Shown here piece after piece: positions 5,034 through 13,430 of a stretch of 15,054 nucleotides of DNA. A program made the position numbers and the translations under genes. The notes below the pieces were generated by a model that saw only the letters and a program-made list of their open reading frames with translations, made no database searches and was not told the DNA's origin. Where the stretch lies: contig LJUY01000069.1 in NCBI GenBank assembly GCA_001304015.1, positions 1-15,054 of the forward strand. The letters run 5' to 3'. Source of the stretch: a candidate division Zixibacteria bacterium SM23_81 (lineage in GTDB: Bacteria; SM23-81). Within the stretch, counting starts at the first letter, position 1. Every line of letters begins with the position of its first letter.

Positions 5034-5063
5034 ATTATACTAGAACATACGTTCTAATGTCAA
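5034..5063 (-). promoter_or_regulatory. Consensus sigma-70/A promoter of the Cys-rich gene
   Basis: On the minus strand, perfect TTGACA (5058-5063) and perfect TATAAT (5034-5039) are separated by 18 bases. Transcription should begin near 5027, leaving a leader of about 23 bases before the ATG at 5004. Such a strong promoter normally needs tight repression, consistent with the operator inside its spacer. Confidence 0.85.
5041..5056. promoter_or_regulatory. LexA-type SOS box
   Basis: The sequence TAGAACATACGTTCTA has TAGAAC/GTTCTA arms around a 4-base centre and fits the Gram-positive/Actinobacterial LexA consensus GAAC-N4-GTTC (5043-5054). It fills the spacer between the -35 and -10 boxes, where a bound repressor would exclude RNA polymerase. 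Confidence 0.75.
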
Positions 5064-5473: not shown

Positions 5474-5507
5474 AAAAACAGGGATGGAACCACAATTCTC
5501 ATCCCTG
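5474..5507 (-). terminator. Intrinsic terminator of the NTPase operon
   Basis: Read on the minus strand, an 8-bp perfect stem CAGGGATG/CATCCCTG (5500-5507 with 5479-5486), loop 13 bases, is followed directly by TTTTT (5474-5478). It lies about 44 bases after the stop of the last NTPase gene. Confidence 0.9.
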
Positions 5508-5550
5508 CTTGTCTCGCTTGGCGTCGTCCCCCCCATTCTGTCGCCGAAAA

Positions 5551-6840
5551 TCAATCCCTCAGCGTCTTCTCCACATTGAGGATTTGTTCGTCCAGCTCGA
5601 CGATTCTGTTGACCAGATAGTCTATCTCGTTCACCAGGTCCAGAGGCGGGCTGGGGCCGTGTTGCGCTTCTTTGAACTTGAGGTGCTCAAGGTTTCTCTC
5701 GTAGATGGCGTGGTCTTCCTTTAACTCTGTTAATTTGGTCTCAAGGGTTTCCGGGTCTGTCATATTGATGGGCCTTTCGCCTTGCTCGATGATCCATTGG
5801 GCAAACAGGAAGGAAAAGACTTCAGGGTGCCTGCCTCGATGCGTCACCAACCCCCGCTCGGTCAGGGAACGCAACTCACGGGTTAGCCGGGCCTGGGTGA
5901 GTTCGTGATCGAGATCGCGGGTCGCTATGGCGAGCAGCAAGGTTTTCTCACCTTCCGTTGAGGCTTCCCATAAGCTTTTGAAATGGTGCGATGCTTGCTC
6001 TTCGAAACGCTTGCTGATGGCCCAGTAGTTTTCTATGGGGCCTACTCGCACTCTGGACTCAAAGAGGAGGGAGCCCGCCGTCTGCAAAAGCAGAGGTTGA
6101 CCACCCGCTATTTGCTTGACATAATTACGTTCGTCCTCCGTGAACTCTAGACCGGTGCCTTTCAACATTTTGGTGAAGAACTGCTCCACCTCGGCCTCTG
6201 TGAAAGGCCTGAGTCGGAAGAGGAGAAAGCTGTTGCTGAAAGGCGAGCCCCTGAATTCTATCCCCTCACACAGCCTGTCCAGCGGCTGAGCGGCGCCGAT
6301 CACCAGGGCCAACCCTTTTGGCACCCGGTTGATGAGAGCCCGCAAGCCGGAGAGGAAATCATGGGTCATCTCAACGCTGCCAGGGTCGGTCCGCACCACC
6401 CATTCGAATTCGTCCAGCAACAGGACCAGCGTCTGCCCATCCTCGTAGATTCGGTCGCTGACGATCTCGAAATCAGTGCAACTGATTTCCTCGCACTCCA
6501 GTAGCTTGGCCGTGGCTTGGCCGAGAGAATCATCAGTGATCTTGTTTCCCAGCAGCCTCAAGACCCTTTGCCAAAAACGGGTGGGGGTGAAACGCGGTAC
6601 GGACTGGCAGTCCACGTAGAGGGGGAGAAATTGCTCTTGTAGGGTGACCTCGCTCAGTCGTCCGGTCAAATAGTGAAGTAGAGAGGTCCGGCCAATGTGC
6701 CGCTCACCGCTGATGGCGCTGCTGCCCCGGGCGGCGCTTGCCAGATGGTCCAGGATCCCCTGGAGCTCCTGCTCTCGCCCCACAAAGTAAGTTGGAGAGA
6801 CAGGGGAATAAGGGGTGAATGGATTTGAGGGATGTGCCAT
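5551..6840 (-). CDS. STAND/Orc-like NTPase with winged helix and C-terminal helical module; Walker A Lys replaced by Arg
   Basis: A 429-residue cytoplasmic protein. It opens with the cluster signature NPF...PV.P.YFVGREQEL (6-26). The P-loop at 45-53 reads GERHIGRTS, with Arg51 where Lys is expected; the codon is CGG. Walker B is LVLLLDEFEW (138-147). A GGQPLL motif (246-251) matches the HP/GxP segment of STAND and archaeal-type ATPases. A winged helix spans about 290-350. Residues 364-429 are charged helices (ERNLEHLKFKEAQHG...PLDLVNEIDYLVNRI) resembling short helical adaptor modules attached to bacterial conflict-type NTPases. It starts with ATG at 6838-6840, with AGGAG eight bases upstream. 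It is the last gene of the four-gene operon, 180 bases after its neighbour. It may be a nucleotide-binding-impaired adaptor or effector subunit; function is inferred. Confidence 0.8.
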   Translation of the reverse strand: MAHPSNPFTPYSPVSPTYFVGREQELQGILDHLASAARGSSAISGERHIGRTSLLHYLTGRLSEVTLQEQFLPLYVDCQSVPRFTPTRFWQRVLRLLGNKITDDSLGQATAKLLECEEISCTDFEIVSDRIYEDGQTLVLLLDEFEWVVRTDPGSVEMTHDFLSGLRALINRVPKGLALVIGAAQPLDRLCEGIEFRGSPFSNSFLLFRLRPFTEAEVEQFFTKMLKGTGLEFTEDERNYVKQIAGGQPLLLQTAGSLLFESRVRVGPIENYWAISKRFEEQASHHFKSLWEASTEGEKTLLLAIATRDLDHELTQARLTRELRSLTERGLVTHRGRHPEVFSFLFAQWIIEQGERPINMTDPETLETKLTELKEDHAIYERNLEHLKFKEAQHGPSPPLDLVNEIDYLVNRIVELDEQILNVEKTLRD

Positions 6841-6883
6841 CGGATAATCTCCTGACTAGCGGCAAATCCGTTGCAAACCCGCA

Positions 6884-6976
6884 CCCTTCGATACGGCCTC
6901 CGCTCCGCCTTTCGATACCTCAGGACAGAGTTCCGGCCTACTCAGGATGCTTGTGGTGAGCCGCGTGTCGAACCGC
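6884..6976 (+). repeat. Intergenic repeat, copy 3
   Basis: The gap between the third and fourth NTPase genes holds CCCTTCGATACGGCC (6884-6898), a second CTTTCGATACCTCAGG (6909-6924), GGCCTACTCAGGATG (6935-6949) and GTGTCGAACCG (6965-6975). It is the same family of motifs as near 3060-3116 and 4458-4530, and here lies inside an operon just after the shortened third gene. Confidence 0.55.
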
Positions 6977-7020
6977 TGGTCTCGTCTTGACAACCGTTGG
7001 CTTATTTGCGCCGCCATTTG

Positions 7021-7911
7021 CTAACCTACACCTAAGCCTACTTTCTTTACTTCTTCTCTGAACCTGGCCTCCATCGCCTGGAAGTTCTCTGCCGTCATCG
7101 GGCCAGCCGCCTTGGCTTCGAAGAGCAAGTGCCCCGCCAACAGGGCCAGCATGGGATGCCCTCGCGAAAGCCTAGAGATGTGGCGGCGGTCGTGCTCGTC
7201 AAAGGTCATTCCCGTGCCAGAGAGAGCGTTTTCGATCAACTCGTCGATCTCCTGGTCTGAGAATCCTTTCAAACGGACCGACATGAAACTGTTGGGGAAG
7301 GGCGACGCTCCCCCAAAATCTATCGTCTGGCACAATTCCTCCAGGGGCTCGTCGGTGGTGACCACCAAGGACAGCGTCCTTGGTCTGCGGTTAATGAGCG
7401 CCCGCAGTTGAGAGAGAAAATCCCGGGTTACCGTCTCATTGGCCACCTGGGTTCGGATCAGCCGCTCAAAGTTGTCCAGCAGCAGGATCAGCCGCTGCCC
7501 TCTCTCGTGAACGGCGTCCAGGATCATCTCAATGTCGGCATTACTGATTTGCTCTTGCTGGCATAGCTTCTGAAGGCCTTCCCCCATACTGTCCTGGAAG
7601 TGAGGTCGGAGGAGGTTAAGCACCTGTCGCCAGAAGGCAGTGATGTTGAAAGGGTGGTCTACCAATTGGCAATCAAAGAGGGAAATGAGGGCGTTGTCCT
7701 CTGTCAGGTCCCACTCCGCTGCAATCTCTGGCGCGGCGATGTAATGCAGCACTGAGGTTTTGCCGGTGCAGCGGGGGCCGCTGATGGCTACGCTGCCCTG
7801 GCCAGGGCCAGTCAACTGGCTGAAGGTTTTCGTTAACTCTCGCTTTCGGCCGATGAAACGGGAGGGGGGGACAGGGCCATCAATCCAGAAAGGGTTGATC
7901 CCGATGGGCAT
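7021..7911 (-). CDS. STAND/Orc-like NTPase lacking the winged-helix domain
   Basis: A 296-residue paralogue of its neighbours. It has the N-terminal NPFWIDGPVPPSRFIGRKREL (6-26), an intact P-loop GPRCTGKTS (45-53), and Walker B LILLLDNFER (141-150), where the second acidic residue is Asn147 instead of Glu. The conserved block SPFPNSF..VRLKGF (203-217) and RGHPMLALLAG (250-260) follow. The chain ends at VGLGVG right where the other members continue into the winged helix, so about 80-130 residues are missing, with dispersed-repeat DNA downstream. The start ATG (7909-7911) is 3 bases from the upstream stop, with the ribosome site (GGAGAGGAG) inside the upstream gene, indicating translational coupling. 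It probably binds ATP, with weak hydrolysis; it could be a regulatory subunit or a truncated remnant. Confidence 0.8.
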   Translation of the reverse strand: MPIGINPFWIDGPVPPSRFIGRKRELTKTFSQLTGPGQGSVAISGPRCTGKTSVLHYIAAPEIAAEWDLTEDNALISLFDCQLVDHPFNITAFWRQVLNLLRPHFQDSMGEGLQKLCQQEQISNADIEMILDAVHERGQRLILLLDNFERLIRTQVANETVTRDFLSQLRALINRRPRTLSLVVTTDEPLEELCQTIDFGGASPFPNSFMSVRLKGFSDQEIDELIENALSGTGMTFDEHDRRHISRLSRGHPMLALLAGHLLFEAKAAGPMTAENFQAMEARFREEVKKVGLGVG

Positions 7912-7914
7912 CTC

Positions 7915-10014
7915 TCACTCCTCTCCTGACCCTCTGCTGGAGATCATTTTCCGCAGGTCCTCTCCCAGCTCGGCGCAAGTCTGATAGCGCTGATCGGGGT
8001 CTTTGGCCATGGCTTTGAAGAGGATATCCTTCAACTCCAGAGGCAAGTGGGGGCCCAAGGCCGTGAGCGGCAGGGATTCCTCACTGCTCAAAAGACGGTG
8101 GATCACCGAGGTGATGTTCTTCCCCTGAAAGGGTCTCTCGCCGGTCAACATCTCGTAGAGGATGACTCCCAGGGAGAAAATATCGGAACGGCCGTCAATC
8201 TCCTGGCCCAATATCTGTTCCGGCGACGCGTATTCCAAAGTCCCGTGGAATGCTCCTGACTGGGAGGTACTTGATGATGAGGTTGAGGCCAATTTGGCCA
8301 GGCCAAAGTCGGTGACTTTCACCTGACCGTTTTCCAGTAGAATGATGTTGGAAGGGTTGACATCTCTGTGGATCACCCCGTGCTGGTGGGCATAGTCCAG
8401 GGCATTACCTATCTGGAGGGCAATGTCGACAGCCCGTGCCAGGGACAGGGGAGCCAGGACTTCCAGCACTCTAGCCAGGGTGGGACCTCCCAGGTATTCC
8501 ATGACAATGAAGGGCTCACCTCTGTCTTCGTCGGCATCATAGACGGCCACTATGTTAGGATGGGTCAGTTGTCCCGCAGACATGGCTTCGCGCTTGAAAC
8601 GCATCTTGGATTTCTGGGAGCGGACCTCCCAGTCCAGGCGCATGACTTTCAGGGTGACTAGACGGGCGATGTTGGGGTCTCGAGCCTTGTAGACTATGCT
8701 CATGGCCCCTTGGCCAAGTTCTTCAATGATTTCATAGCGCCCTATTCTCTTCCAGTCGGTGCGACCTAGCCTGACATTCTCCCTGTCACTAATCCGTCTC
8801 ATGACATTCGTCACTTGCTCTGCCTCATCTCTTGGAAGCAGGTCGAACATGAGCGTTTCTCGTTTGGCGAACTCTTCCTTGTCAGCATTCCTTATTTCCC
8901 TTATCACCCAGGATTCAAAGGTGGCTGGGCAGACGGTGATGCTCTTTCCCACCTGGGCAATGAGGCCCCGTTTGAGCAGGTCTTTCAGCGTGCGTTCATG
9001 GCGACGGCAAATACGCTCAAAGGCAACCCCATCGTAGGCCCATTTGCTCTTTTCACGTTCTCCCGATCTCTTCAGAGCCAGGACTGTCAAAAGCATCTGT
9101 TCCTCGCGGCTGCAGTTCTCCCAGAGCTGAGAGAGGTGGTAGCGAGCCAATTCTTCGAACTCGGCTCTGATTAATTCCGAGTTGGGAGCCGTTTCCAGAC
9201 CCTGCATACGGAACTCCAGAAGGGTGGAGCCGGCCAATTGGATCAGGAGGGGATGGGTTCCGGCCAGGGAGCAGACAAAGTCACGCTCTTCTAGGGTGAA
9301 TTCGATGCCTGTTCCTTTTAAAGCATTGTCGAGCAATTGGTCAATTTCTCTGCGGGTAAAGGGTCTTAGGCGCCGGAAGGTGAACTCGTTGTCGAAGGGT
9401 GAGCCGATGAACTTTATCGGACGGCACAGTTCGTGCAGCTCTCGACAGGTAGCAACGATCAGCACCAGGGCCTTCGGCGTCCGGTTCATGAGTGCCCGCA
9501 AGGCCGACAGAAAATCGCGTGTAATGGGTTCGTTGTCATCGTCGGTTCGGATGACCCACTCGAACTCATCGAGCAGAAGGACAAGCACCTGACCTCGGCG
9601 GCTGATTTCATCGAGGATGATCTCAAAGTCAGTGTGGCCGATTTCTTCCTTGGCCAGAATACCCTCAATGATCTCTGGAGGTAGGTTCCCTTTCCTTTCG
9701 CGGAGGAGGAGGGTGAGCAGCCGTTGCCAGAAACGGGAGGGTCTGAACTCACTGATGGATTGGGAATCCAGGAAAAGGAAGAGGTATTTGTCCTGCGATA
9801 AACCCCATTCTTGCAGGACATCAGGATGGCAAACGTATTGCAGCAGCGAGGTTTTGCCAATGCGGCGGTCTCCGCAAATGGCGATGCTGCCCAGCGCGTG
9901 GCTGGTGATTTGGTCAAAGACGATTTGTAGCTCTCGTTCCCGCCCGATAAAGTGAGAGGGGGGGACGGGGCCACCACAGATGAAAGGGTTTCCTAGCCTG
10001 TTCGCCGGTACCAC
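7915..10014 (-). CDS. STAND/Orc-like NTPase fused to a Hanks-type Ser/Thr protein kinase
   Basis: A 699-residue cytoplasmic fusion. The NTPase part has NPFICGGPVPPSHFIGRERE (9-28), P-loop GDRRIGKTS (48-56), Walker B LVLLLDEFEW (144-153) and AGTHPLLIQLAG (251-262), followed by a winged helix (about 300-375). A helical linker leads to a kinase domain (427-690): glycine loop ELGQGAMSIVY (432-442), Lys456 (VTLK), Glu476, HRDVNPSN (549-556), DFG (569-571), SPE (597-599). The catalytic loop has Asn553 where active kinases carry Lys. Most STAND-kinase fusions put the kinase first; here it is C-terminal. No membrane helix follows the kinase. It starts with GTG at 10012-10014 (AAGAGG nine bases upstream), 34 bases after the membrane-sensor gene, and is coupled to the next gene. 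Likely role: nucleotide- or sensor-controlled phosphorylation of partner proteins. Confidence 0.88.
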   Translation of the reverse strand: MVPANRLGNPFICGGPVPPSHFIGRERELQIVFDQITSHALGSIAICGDRRIGKTSLLQYVCHPDVLQEWGLSQDKYLFLFLDSQSISEFRPSRFWQRLLTLLLRERKGNLPPEIIEGILAKEEIGHTDFEIILDEISRRGQVLVLLLDEFEWVIRTDDDNEPITRDFLSALRALMNRTPKALVLIVATCRELHELCRPIKFIGSPFDNEFTFRRLRPFTRREIDQLLDNALKGTGIEFTLEERDFVCSLAGTHPLLIQLAGSTLLEFRMQGLETAPNSELIRAEFEELARYHLSQLWENCSREEQMLLTVLALKRSGEREKSKWAYDGVAFERICRRHERTLKDLLKRGLIAQVGKSITVCPATFESWVIREIRNADKEEFAKRETLMFDLLPRDEAEQVTNVMRRISDRENVRLGRTDWKRIGRYEIIEELGQGAMSIVYKARDPNIARLVTLKVMRLDWEVRSQKSKMRFKREAMSAGQLTHPNIVAVYDADEDRGEPFIVMEYLGGPTLARVLEVLAPLSLARAVDIALQIGNALDYAHQHGVIHRDVNPSNIILLENGQVKVTDFGLAKLASTSSSSTSQSGAFHGTLEYASPEQILGQEIDGRSDIFSLGVILYEMLTGERPFQGKNITSVIHRLLSSEESLPLTALGPHLPLELKDILFKAMAKDPDQRYQTCAELGEDLRKMISSRGSGEE

Positions 10015-10048
10015 TACCAGTTACCTCTTGAGAGCTTGACGTGGGAAC

Positions 10049-13000
10049 TCACTGTCGCTTCCAGAGTTGGCCTCCATCGGTTGATTTGTACAATCCCCCA
10101 AAGCTGGCCGCATAGATGGTTTGGCTATCATTGGGGTCTATAGCGATGGATTGCACGTAATAACCGCCGAGCCACGCGGCATCAATGGGCAGGCCGTTGT
10201 TAATGCTTTTCCAACTCAGGCCACCATCAGTGCTCTTGTAAATTCCATGTCCATCGTAATTGCTTTTGAAGCCAGTGCCGGCATAGATGGTGTTGGGATT
10301 GCGGGGGTCAATGGCCAGAGCCGATATTTTCAATTCAATTCCTGGATGTTTCAATCCCCCATTTCTTAACAGCCAGTTATGACCGCCATCGGTGCTCAGC
10401 AATGCGGTGGAGTCATTCGTGCCAGCGTAGATCCATTGGCTGTTTTTGGGGTGCAATGCCAGGGCATAAACCGCTTCCTTGAAGTAGCCAGAGGATAGCT
10501 TTTCCCATGGGGAGCTTCCGGCGTCAATAGATTTCCAGATCTCGGCGCCCCTGCCAGCGGCGTAGATTAAATTCCCGTCATGGGAGCCGATGGCCAGGGT
10601 GTAGATGGCTGTATCCCCCATGCCCTTGTTCCTTGCTTCCCACGTCAGGCCGCCATTGGAGCTCCTGTAAACCCCACGCTCAATCCCGGCGTAGATAACT
10701 TGGCTGTTACCCTCAGGGATAGCCAGCACATGGGCTGGCCCAGGGAGAGCGTCCTTTCCCACGGCGATCAATTCCCACGTTGTTCCTCCATCCATGGACT
10801 TTAGAATCCCATTCCAGATGGCCGCGTACAGAATCGAGGAGTCCTTTGGATCAATAGTCAGACTTTCAACTGTTTCATGCTTGTAAACTTGTTCCCAGCG
10901 ATAGCCACCGTCTGTGCTCCTGTAGATTCCTTGCCCTTTGACGATGGTGTATATCACTTTGTTGTTCTCAGGGTTGACGTCTACATCCCAGACCTCCACA
11001 GTTCCCAGAGGCTTTGGAGGTTGAGTAACCGGGGTTGAGGTCGGCGTCCAGGTTGGTGAGGGCGTGAAAGTAGGAGTGTTAGTTGCCGTCGCTGTCGGTG
11101 TTGGGGGAGTTGTCTCCGTTGGTGTGGAGGTTGCCGCCAGCGTTGGGGTAGGCGACGGTGCTACGGCGATGCTCACTTGAGTCGGTGTGTGCGTGGGGCT
11201 GGGAGACGGCGATGGCGATGGGGTCAGGGTAGCAGTAGCGGTTGGTGTCAAAGCAGCGAGAAGTTGTGCCCTCTTATATTCAGCGTATTTAGTGGTACCC
11301 CAGGCCCCAAGAGGGATAAGTACAAAGGCTGAGGCGATAGCAACCAGGGCCAGGCGCAGGTTGCGTTTGCGTCTGGCGATGCGTTCGCGCTGCAGAATCG
11401 CCTCTTTCAGCAGAGCAGACACCTTTTGGCCGTTTTCACCCACATAATCAGGATTTCTGCTGTATAGCCGCTCCCACTTCTCTTGTGCCAGGCTCCATAT
11501 CTTTGCCGTGTGGGCCACCATGGCTTCAGCGTAGAGGTTGGCCTGGGACCATTCTTCCAGCATCCTCTGCACACGCCGTTTGGCTTCCCCGTCGTCGAAC
11601 TCGCGTATCAACCATGTGTAGACGTCGTTGGCTCTTCTCCACTCCCTTTCTTGCTCGTACCCTTCCGCTTCAGCGAGCTTGATGTCTGTCAGCCGCCTCC
11701 GGGCCATTTCATTGTCAGGTGCAATCTCCAGAACCCGCTCATATCTTCTGGCTGCCTCAGCAACAGATGTGACATCTTTCTCCAATGATTCCCCGGATGC
11801 CAGTAGAGCCTTGATTAAACCTTCGCTGGCTATCTCATCCAGGTTATGAGCTTTCTCATATTCTGTGACTGCTTCTTCGATCAGGCCCTGTTCGTGCAAG
11901 GCTTGCGCCAAACCAAGCTGGGCTCCCGCGTGATTGGGATTGGCGGCCAGGGCACGCCGGTAGCTCTCCACAGCTATTTCCAAGTCTCCGTCAATGTGGG
12001 CTTGCCGCGCGTAGGTATAGTCGCGGATAGCCCGCTTGCTGATACTCTCTAGCTCCCGTTTGGCGTTCTCCAGGGAGTGTTTTTTACCGATCCAACGTCT
12101 CAGTAGTTCGACAACAAATTTGTAGCCATCCCGCTCTCCCGTCTTCTCAAGCCAGCCCCAATCCACCAGCATGTCAGGGGCTCGGGTCAACTCGACACCC
12201 AGCAACCGTACTCGATATCGGCGCAGGGCTTCGTTGATGCTTTCTTTGGTAGCTATCCCATTTTCGTCAGTGACACTGGTCACCGCTGAAAGGATGAACC
12301 GTTCGGCGATAGGCAACCCGTCCCAGAGCCAGGCCAGGCCCGAACCGCCGCTTTCTATGGCATCGTCAATAACGGCGTTAATGTCGTCTACCGTTACCCT
12401 GGTTTTGCCCAAGCTGTCGAGATAGTCAACCAGCTCAAAGCACACCAATTGTGTCAGGTAGGGGTGGCAAGCGGTGACAGAAAGGATTTGCTCGATGGCA
12501 TTGTCGTCGTATTCTAACAAGCCCAGCATGGGTTCTCTGATGAGCCGCCTGGCGTCTTCCCTGGAGAGGAAAGAAATCGGTCTGGTTCTGGCCTGTTTGA
12601 ATGTGGCCAGGAACTCAGGAGTCAGTTCCTCAAGGCGGCGTCCAACCACGAAGATATAGACCAGCTTCTCTTCATCGAAGAGTCTGTTTTGAAGGTAAGG
12701 GAAGAAAGTGTTCAGGGCCATTGCCCCATCTAGAAGCTCTTCACTGAGCACATCAAACTCGTCAAAGAGGAGAAGCAGATGCTGATCCTGGAGGGCTTCA
12801 TAAGCGTGTGGGAGGAAACATTCACTGAAATAGTCGCCATCGTCCTCGAACTCGGATTGGGCTACAGGGGAGAGGTTCAGCGTTTCAGCGATTTTCTCAG
12901 CCAAAGCGCACAGTACTTCGTTAAGGTTTTGGCTGGCTCGGCCTTCCAAATTGAAGTAGACAGGGTGAAAACCTTCCGGCAGGTTGGACGGCTTCTGCAA

Positions 13001-13174
13001 CTGGTAGAGGATGGAGGTCTTGCCGACGCGCCGCTGGCCGAACAGCACGATGACCTTTTGATGAGTTGACGAGAAGGTCTTTCGTACGAAATCAAAGACG
13101 TCTTGTCGTCCGTAGAAGCCTTCATCCCCTCCAATAGGTGGGCCTGCAATGTAAGGGTTCGGTATCCTGACCAT
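10049..13174 (-). CDS. Membrane-anchored STAND NTPase with TPRs and an extracytoplasmic Asp-box propeller
   Basis: A 1041-residue protein. Domains: N-terminal NPYIAGPP...GFYGRQDVF (6-27); NTPase with P-loop GQRRVGKTS (46-54), Walker B LLLLFDEFD (133-141) and CHPYLTQLVC (236-245); winged helix (about 290-362); TPR-like helices (about 383-590); basic RIARRKRNLR then one membrane helix (607-625); Pro/Thr/Ser-rich stalk (643-722); and seven Asp-box units ending S-x-D/N-x-G-x-x-W at about 753, 793, 838, 882, 927, 981 and 1031. The positive-inside rule puts the NTPase and TPRs in the cytoplasm and the propeller outside. Repeats alternate with LAIDP...IYAG strands typical of BNR/sortilin/YCF48-like propellers. 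It starts with ATG at 13172-13174 (AGAGGA six bases upstream) and is first in the operon. Likely a sensor that passes an external signal to the NTPase and kinase partners; ligand unknown. Confidence 0.9.
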   Translation of the reverse strand: MVRIPNPYIAGPPIGGDEGFYGRQDVFDFVRKTFSSTHQKVIVLFGQRRVGKTSILYQLQKPSNLPEGFHPVYFNLEGRASQNLNEVLCALAEKIAETLNLSPVAQSEFEDDGDYFSECFLPHAYEALQDQHLLLLFDEFDVLSEELLDGAMALNTFFPYLQNRLFDEEKLVYIFVVGRRLEELTPEFLATFKQARTRPISFLSREDARRLIREPMLGLLEYDDNAIEQILSVTACHPYLTQLVCFELVDYLDSLGKTRVTVDDINAVIDDAIESGGSGLAWLWDGLPIAERFILSAVTSVTDENGIATKESINEALRRYRVRLLGVELTRAPDMLVDWGWLEKTGERDGYKFVVELLRRWIGKKHSLENAKRELESISKRAIRDYTYARQAHIDGDLEIAVESYRRALAANPNHAGAQLGLAQALHEQGLIEEAVTEYEKAHNLDEIASEGLIKALLASGESLEKDVTSVAEAARRYERVLEIAPDNEMARRRLTDIKLAEAEGYEQEREWRRANDVYTWLIREFDDGEAKRRVQRMLEEWSQANLYAEAMVAHTAKIWSLAQEKWERLYSRNPDYVGENGQKVSALLKEAILQRERIARRKRNLRLALVAIASAFVLIPLGAWGTTKYAEYKRAQLLAALTPTATATLTPSPSPSPSPTHTPTQVSIAVAPSPTPTLAATSTPTETTPPTPTATATNTPTFTPSPTWTPTSTPVTQPPKPLGTVEVWDVDVNPENNKVIYTIVKGQGIYRSTDGGYRWEQVYKHETVESLTIDPKDSSILYAAIWNGILKSMDGGTTWELIAVGKDALPGPAHVLAIPEGNSQVIYAGIERGVYRSSNGGLTWEARNKGMGDTAIYTLAIGSHDGNLIYAAGRGAEIWKSIDAGSSPWEKLSSGYFKEAVYALALHPKNSQWIYAGTNDSTALLSTDGGHNWLLRNGGLKHPGIELKISALAIDPRNPNTIYAGTGFKSNYDGHGIYKSTDGGLSWKSINNGLPIDAAWLGGYYVQSIAIDPNDSQTIYAASFGGLYKSTDGGQLWKRQ
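11009..11248 (-). repeat. Low-complexity Pro/Thr/Ser coding repeat (stalk)
   Basis: In the sensor gene, about 80 codons are mostly Pro, Thr, Ser and Ala (TPSPSPSPSP, TPTPTATATNTPTFTPSP). They form an extended, probably O-glycosylated stalk between the membrane helix and the propeller. The DNA is G/T-rich on the plus strand and prone to length change. Confidence 0.8.
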
Positions 13175-13430
13175 CTATCGTCCTCTCTGGTAGGGTTAAT
13201 AGTTCCTATTGGTTACGGCTTTTCGGTCACCCTCAAAGTGGGGAAGAACACCTTGAGGTCGTGTACAAAGGAATACCCCTGAGGTAAGAATACTACTCCA
13301 GGGGCCTCCAACCTCTGCTCGCCTACGAGAACTTGCCTCACCAGCCCAACTGAAGAGCTTTCTACTCCCTATCCTCTAGGATCATGTCGTAGGGAATGGA
13401 GCCATCGCGCTAGTGAAACACTCTATGAAT
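13175..13430 (-). promoter_or_regulatory. Long 5' leader of the NTPase operon with two hairpins
   Basis: From the predicted start near 13424, about 250 bases precede the ATG with no gene. Two RNA hairpins are visible: CCCCTG/CAGGGG arms (13276-13281 with 13299-13304), and a 10-bp stem with one G-U (13231-13240 with 13249-13258, loop 8). Neither is followed by a T-run. A short dyad, ATCCT..AGGAT, lies near 13371-13382. No known riboswitch was recognised. Confidence 0.35.

Follow-up and report, generated by a model that had tools for sequence, protein, structure and literature searches.

What task would require four neighbouring NTPases of one class, each ending in a different way and one of them apparently crossing the membrane? 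For the most part, the known STAND NTPases, the class of the NLRs and the apoptosome, sense in the cytosol and carry their effector on the same chain. The operon in question consists of four minus-strand genes, named A, B, C and D here, each encoding a STAND/ORC-type AAA+ NTPase, and it lies in a stretch of 15,054 nucleotides which was analysed at full length and is called the window below. A preliminary description of the window had listed four same-strand genes with gaps of 34 (A-B), 3 (B-C) and 180 (C-D) bases, a common leader pattern in front of a P-loop NTPase, four different C-terminal parts, and one promoter with one terminator. The mechanically picked ORFs were found exactly at these positions and their coordinates give the same gaps, the NP[FY]...F.GR motif followed by the P-loop NTPase was seen in all four N-termini, and the C-terminal parts were confirmed by Pfam, by sequence and by a structural model of D. 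The features are the following.

13459-13431, minus strand: sigma-70-type promoter TTGACA-17-TATATT, 11 of 12 consensus matches
13175-13430, minus strand: 5' leader of the operon, about 250 nt, non-coding yet well conserved
13174-10049, minus strand: gene A, 1041 aa, STAND NTPase - TPR - TM - Pro/Thr stalk - Vps10/BNR propeller
12050-13174, minus strand: A-type NTPase domain of A, aa 1-375, Walker A (GQRRVGKT) and Walker B (LFDEF) intact
11675-12019, minus strand: TPR region of A, about aa 386-500, matched by Pfam TPR families and solved TPR proteins
11303-11359, minus strand: predicted TM helix of A, aa 606-624, flanks with 7 vs 3 K/R, richer on the NTPase side
10052-11002, minus strand: Vps10/BNR-type beta-propeller of A, aa 725-1041, PF15902 (Sortilin-Vps10) 1.1e-17, PF14870 4.2e-9
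10014-7915, minus strand: gene B, 699 aa, B-type (nSTAND2-related) NTPase and Ser/Thr kinase
7978-8736, minus strand: Ser/Thr kinase domain of B, aa 427-679, Pkinase 1e-52
7911-7021, minus strand: gene C, 296 aa, bare B-type NTPase
6840-5551, minus strand: gene D, 429 aa, B-type NTPase, winged helix and two-helix hairpin tail
5557-5754, minus strand: helical hairpin of the D tail, aa 363-428 (last 66 residues), from an AlphaFold2 model and a profile search
5474-5508, minus strand: intrinsic terminator after D, stem-loop and U5 tract, -33 kcal/mol, z -4.6

Both promoter hexamers are unchanged in a relative of the locus (genome G052), and the upstream region including the leader is about 92% identical between the two. 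The leader of gene A may form hairpins, and no known RNA family matched it in an Rfam scan. The C-D gap (6841-7020) consists of repeat-like CATCCTGAG sequence, which shows little conservation in G052 and has there the form of an inverted repeat; a second copy was not found in its own genome, nor did a repeat search within the gap find any. The operon is flanked by der (EngA) upstream and rpsT downstream, and the defence island whose presence was to be checked is not visible around it. Outside the operon, a perfect TTGACA-18-TATAAT promoter (5034-5063, minus strand) stands upstream of a minus-strand ORF (5004-4570).

The nominal host had to be considered before the relatives of the locus could be interpreted. 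Two full-length der genes are present in the nominal genome (G000). The der of the window shares 92% identity with that of the Anaerolineae genome G052, and its counterpart on contig C26 shares 68% with the partial der of the family member G001. Judged from this comparison, the window contig (G000:C8) is probably an Anaerolineae contig misbinned into another genome, in agreement with the Chloroflexota origin guessed earlier. Misbinning also explains that no relative of the operon was detected near the nominal host in 290 genomes at the threshold used; the nominal group comprises four genomes, and its other members gave no relative at that threshold. Viral contigs contained no relatives either.

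In two other genomes (G052 and G016) the A-B-C order is kept, and in G052 D is kept as well, the four genes being about 90% identical to those of the window and standing beside der. In G016 the D slot is occupied by an 841-aa B-type NTPase-kinase. C is a bare NTPase of 298-299 aa in both genomes, and dN/dS between the loci is 0.12-0.18 for A, 0.11-0.21 for B, 0.12-0.14 for C and 0.17 for D; thus all four genes, C and D included, are under purifying selection, and the set cannot be attributed to chance. C as a truncated pseudogene was ruled out by its conserved length, its conserved DN change (see below) and the selection on it. An apparent loss of the propeller from A in G016 was likewise rejected, since it reflects a run of N (assembly gap) in the contig, after which the same propeller end follows. 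Directly after D, G052 contains two more A-type and two more B-type genes and then an OmpR-like gene (L041:3112-10765), which suggests a growing or exchanging cassette.

The four NTPases are not equally related. B, C and D are close paralogues, 41-49% identical over the NTPase, and the NTPase of A is only 23-25% identical to them, so that the idea of four paralogues holds closely for three of the genes and more distantly for A. Hereafter, homologues of the two kinds are called A-types and B-types. The model of D (AlphaFold2, pLDDT 82) has an ORC-like AAA+ core with a winged helix, as in the STAND/ORC clade, and a two-helix hairpin behind it; its structural matches rank archaeal STAND-like ATPases and ORC/Cdc6 ahead of NLRs and CED-4 (2qen Z 21.8, ORC2 1w5t 19.9, RPP1 16.3, CED-4 15.2). 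Solved relatives found by sequence were only remote AAA+ proteins. On the strength of the modelled resemblance, the assignment of the B-type core to the STAND/ORC-clade AAA+ proteins, and with it the STAND label given in the preliminary description, is well supported.

The catalytic residues, by which that description had passed, divide the set further. In B the Walker motifs are intact and the kinase domain contains the VxLK, HRD and DFG residues in its sequence. In C, which has nothing C-terminal of the NTPase core, the Walker-B Glu is replaced by Asn (LLLDNF), a substitution kept in G052 and G016; in D the Walker-A Lys is replaced by Arg (GERHIGRT), which is kept in G052. C and D therefore look like pseudo-NTPases as far as their motifs tell. 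A candidate alpha-4 Arg, assigned as arginine finger by position, is retained in B, C and D, and the same position is occupied by Gln in the A proteins of the window and of its two close relatives and by Arg in most A-types. Taken together with the changes in C and D, this distribution suggests composite ATP sites between A and its B, C and D neighbours. Across the families the Walker Lys is present in 61 of 64 B-types and the Walker-B DE in 58 of 64, nearly all A-types have both Walker motifs intact, and the candidate Arg is found in 97% of the B-types and 79% of the A-types.

Gene A had been proposed as a membrane sensor facing outside, and the topology prediction for the whole family agrees. 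By a simple hydropathy rule a TM segment is predicted in 49 of 58 A-types (nine lack one by this rule) vs 1 of 64 B-types. The K/R-rich flank lies on the NTPase side in 37 of the 38 informative A-types (p 3e-10), and this bias holds both for NTPase-first proteins (window A, PD40 types) and for NTPase-last ones (L086, with an N-terminal FG-GAP propeller). Since the positive flank stays on the NTPase side in both domain orders, the accessory parts beyond the membrane helix are predicted to be outside and the TPRs between NTPase and helix inside; in window A this would place the propeller, which follows a Pro/Thr-rich stalk, outside the membrane. Accessory parts of the A-types comprise Vps10/BNR, PD40, FG-GAP, LamG-like, TPR and HEAT domains.

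Is the four-gene set itself the conserved unit? A B-type NTPase profile was searched against 396 genomes of the class, where it matched in 92, and five candidates were scored per genome. Among loci chosen in this way by B-type score from one class, mostly in draft genomes, a same-strand A-type gene was present within 2.5 kb in 49 of the 53 with a B-type gene, usually less than 250 bp away or overlapping; two of the four exceptions are at contig ends. As a genome contains only roughly 1 to 12 A-type genes, this pairing is far above chance. Searched from the A side, 11 further loci had a B-type neighbour in five cases. Because it was absent in the other six (in two of which, L168 and L174, the A-type runs to the contig end), A-types may have other partners too. 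The NTPase distances of A and B are correlated (50 pairs; Mantel r 0.90, p<=0.0001), and when partners were shuffled within genomes the observed correlation was reached in none of 2000 shuffles. The co-divergence supports contact between A and B without proving it, since co-inheritance in an operon alone could correlate the trees; the two NTPase profiles also match each other. The core is thus a widespread two-gene pair of an A-type and a B-type, of which the set in the window is an expanded version. The conserved neighbourhood that had been expected in other genomes was indeed found, and homologues scattered singly were not what the loci showed; the four-gene unit originally proposed is kept whole in G052 and as A-B-C in G016, and represents an enlargement of the pair.

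The varied outputs postulated for the system are carried mainly by the B-types. Kinases occur in the window and its relatives, OmpR-type Trans_reg_C domains in L047, L049 and L086, a LuxR-type GerE domain in L069, EAD7 in L055, L090 and L104, TCAD9 in L048 and L051, an N-terminal TIR in L057 and HEPN_Swt1 in L165. OmpR- and LuxR-type HTH domains together make up about 18 of the B-type tails read, those of L047, L049, L069 and L086 being verified by Pfam; outputs beyond those assigned above to a locus were read from the tails by eye. The division of labour is not absolute, since in L096 the output HTH is on A and a membrane part on B. In L057 (4803-7403) TIR, STAND NTPase and Ser/Thr kinase are joined in a single protein, and the HEPN-bearing B-type of L165 (8274-9952) is split over two overlapping ORFs by a frameshift or a sequencing error.

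The helical module of D, noted previously as a charged tail, proved to be a recurrent, adaptor-like part, as far as profile and motif comparison can tell. Its profile matches other B-types as well (L060-L063, L065) and finds 5-26 copies per genome across G052, G016, G307, G281, G214 and G234 (7 in G052, 26 in G307 and 17 in G281). The motif NL..L....A..G....P..L.N.I is common to 29 members with several positions conserved at 79-100%, which indicates more than a coiled coil. The module is attached to SIR2_2, CHAT, nSTAND1, AAA_35, Pkinase and EAD7 proteins. Like the EADs, from whose example its putative adaptor role is drawn, it is a small domain that recurs both on STAND proteins and on effectors (SIR2, CHAT), and it occurs on the core NTPase and on separate effector proteins of one genome; unlike them it is a helical hairpin with a motif of its own, and the module itself had no match in a Pfam scan.

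The set had not been recognised at the outset. Its closest known system is the predicted two-gene nSTAND2 operon (PMC8195603), and a description of a version with a membrane sensor was not found among the papers searched, where the one further paper using the term nSTAND2 was unrelated. That mobile operon encodes two nSTAND2 STAND NTPases with conserved arginine fingers; the partner with eroded motifs carries a GT4 or HEPN effector, and the operon was predicted as a counter-invader system (Kaur, Iyer, Burroughs, Aravind, eLife 2021, PMC8195603, Fig. 6C). Adjacent STAND NTPase genes with a variable effector on one of them are common to both (window A-B and the 49 of 53 loci), and the candidate alpha-4 Arg, assigned by position in most A-types and B-types, may correspond to the arginine fingers described there. 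The nSTAND2 profile of Pfam recognises B (40.9 bits, 2e-10, cut-off 24) and its relatives down to 7e-29; C (16.7) and A (16.3) stay below the cut-off, D is absent from the listed matches, and L098 alone passes among the other A-types scanned. The ternary VMAP/iSTAND systems with MoxR and vWA (Kaur et al., eLife 2020, PMC7159879) share the idea of an inactive STAND subunit, modular effectors, EAD/TCAD domains and the occurrence in Chloroflexota; here, however, two STAND types stand in place of MoxR and vWA, and no MoxR AAA+ or vWA gene was present among the window proteins scanned. With two- and one-component receptors the locus has in common an outside sensor, a membrane helix and a variable cytosolic output such as Trans_reg_C, but NTPases link these parts instead of a histidine kinase and a receiver. 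PADLOC reported no known defence system, only kinase-domain and very weak matches: those of MADS and PD-T4-6 to B cover just the kinase domain and its flank (aa 398-696), and no other convincing MADS gene was seen in the window, the mad8 match to C being 16.8 bits over 21 residues.

We consider it fairly probable that the operon is an expanded member of a conserved signalling system of the Anaerolineae, built of a sensor NTPase and an effector NTPase. A might then be an envelope-spanning STAND NTPase whose propeller detects a ligand outside, with its TPRs and NTPase in the cytosol; B, C and D would be soluble and form a hetero-oligomer in which they bind A, or bind each other around it. On binding its ligand, A would pass into another nucleotide state, and the shared ATP sites would convert this into a switch of the whole complex from its off to its on form. 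The output might be phosphorylation by the kinase of B and the recruitment, through the helical hairpin of D, of other proteins bearing the same module, and C and D could serve as regulatory subunits which bind nucleotide or complete the site of a neighbour rather than turn over ATP. The response might be directed to stress or to an invader.

It could be argued that the locus is simply a member of the nSTAND2 counter-invader operons, of anti-phage or abortive-infection type, in which A responds to a cue from an invader and its B-type partners set off an effector that is toxic or dominant-negative. The profile matches of the B-types, the two-gene layout and the HEPN-bearing relative fit the published description, and the TIR, EAD7 and TCAD9 outputs, the links of the D tail to SIR2 and CHAT, and the exchange of outputs at the same site in G016 point in this direction. 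However, the motifs of the effector-bearing NTPase, eroded in the published partner, are intact here (only window C and D are altered), the A-types mostly miss the profile and are predicted to span the membrane with an outside sensor, and no GT4 effector was seen among the B-types scanned; therefore we regard the operon as a variant rather than a plain member of that group. Moreover, many outputs are kinases, DNA-binding domains or adaptors and not toxins, the window has three B-type paralogues with two of them catalytically altered, and the locus stands between der and rpsT with no system recognised by PADLOC. We regard plain membership as rather unlikely. Still less credible is that A and the B-types assemble each with its own kind and share no more than a transcript, with B, C and D as lineage-specific duplicates of which C and D are decaying: their close tandem paralogy, the substitutions in C and D and the variable sequence between these two genes would suit it, but purifying selection on C and D is as strong as on B, the substitutions and the length of C are conserved, and the B-types almost always have an A-type beside them and diverge together with their own partner.

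The sensor and effector NTPase system might also be read more narrowly, as mainly a transmembrane control of transcription and phosphorylation in response to envelope or nutrient cues, with no immune role. We hold this to be possible though somewhat doubtful: the share of HTH tails, kinases which look active from their residues and propellers predicted to face outward speak for it, but the TIR, HEPN, EAD7 and TCAD9 outputs and the presence of the D tail on SIR2 and CHAT proteins point to an ancestry in conflict systems. Immune and non-immune signalling are about equally likely.

Our more far-reaching proposal is a tentative one: envelope-spanning STAND receptors with a dedicated soluble partner NTPase might constitute a two-component system built of NTPases, which feeds kinases, transcription factors or, via an uncatalogued helical adaptor, SIR2 and CHAT proteins, and in which window C and D supply arginine fingers to the finger-less A in an obligate heteromeric ring. 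Sensing and response appear here divided between two dedicated NTPases, the sensor predicted to cross the membrane, the outputs exchanged and the pair co-diverging. If this is true, the pair would offer a tractable bacterial model of mutual control by paired NLR-like proteins and pseudo-NTPase subunits, and would add an adaptor module linking such receptors to known immune effectors.

Two further proteins extend the range of architectures. One (L075:7914-12191) combines an A-type NTPase with TPR, FHA and a complete ABC transporter in a single chain. The other is a small protein composed of EAD7 and the D-tail module (L117:1189-1668), a possible bridging adaptor.
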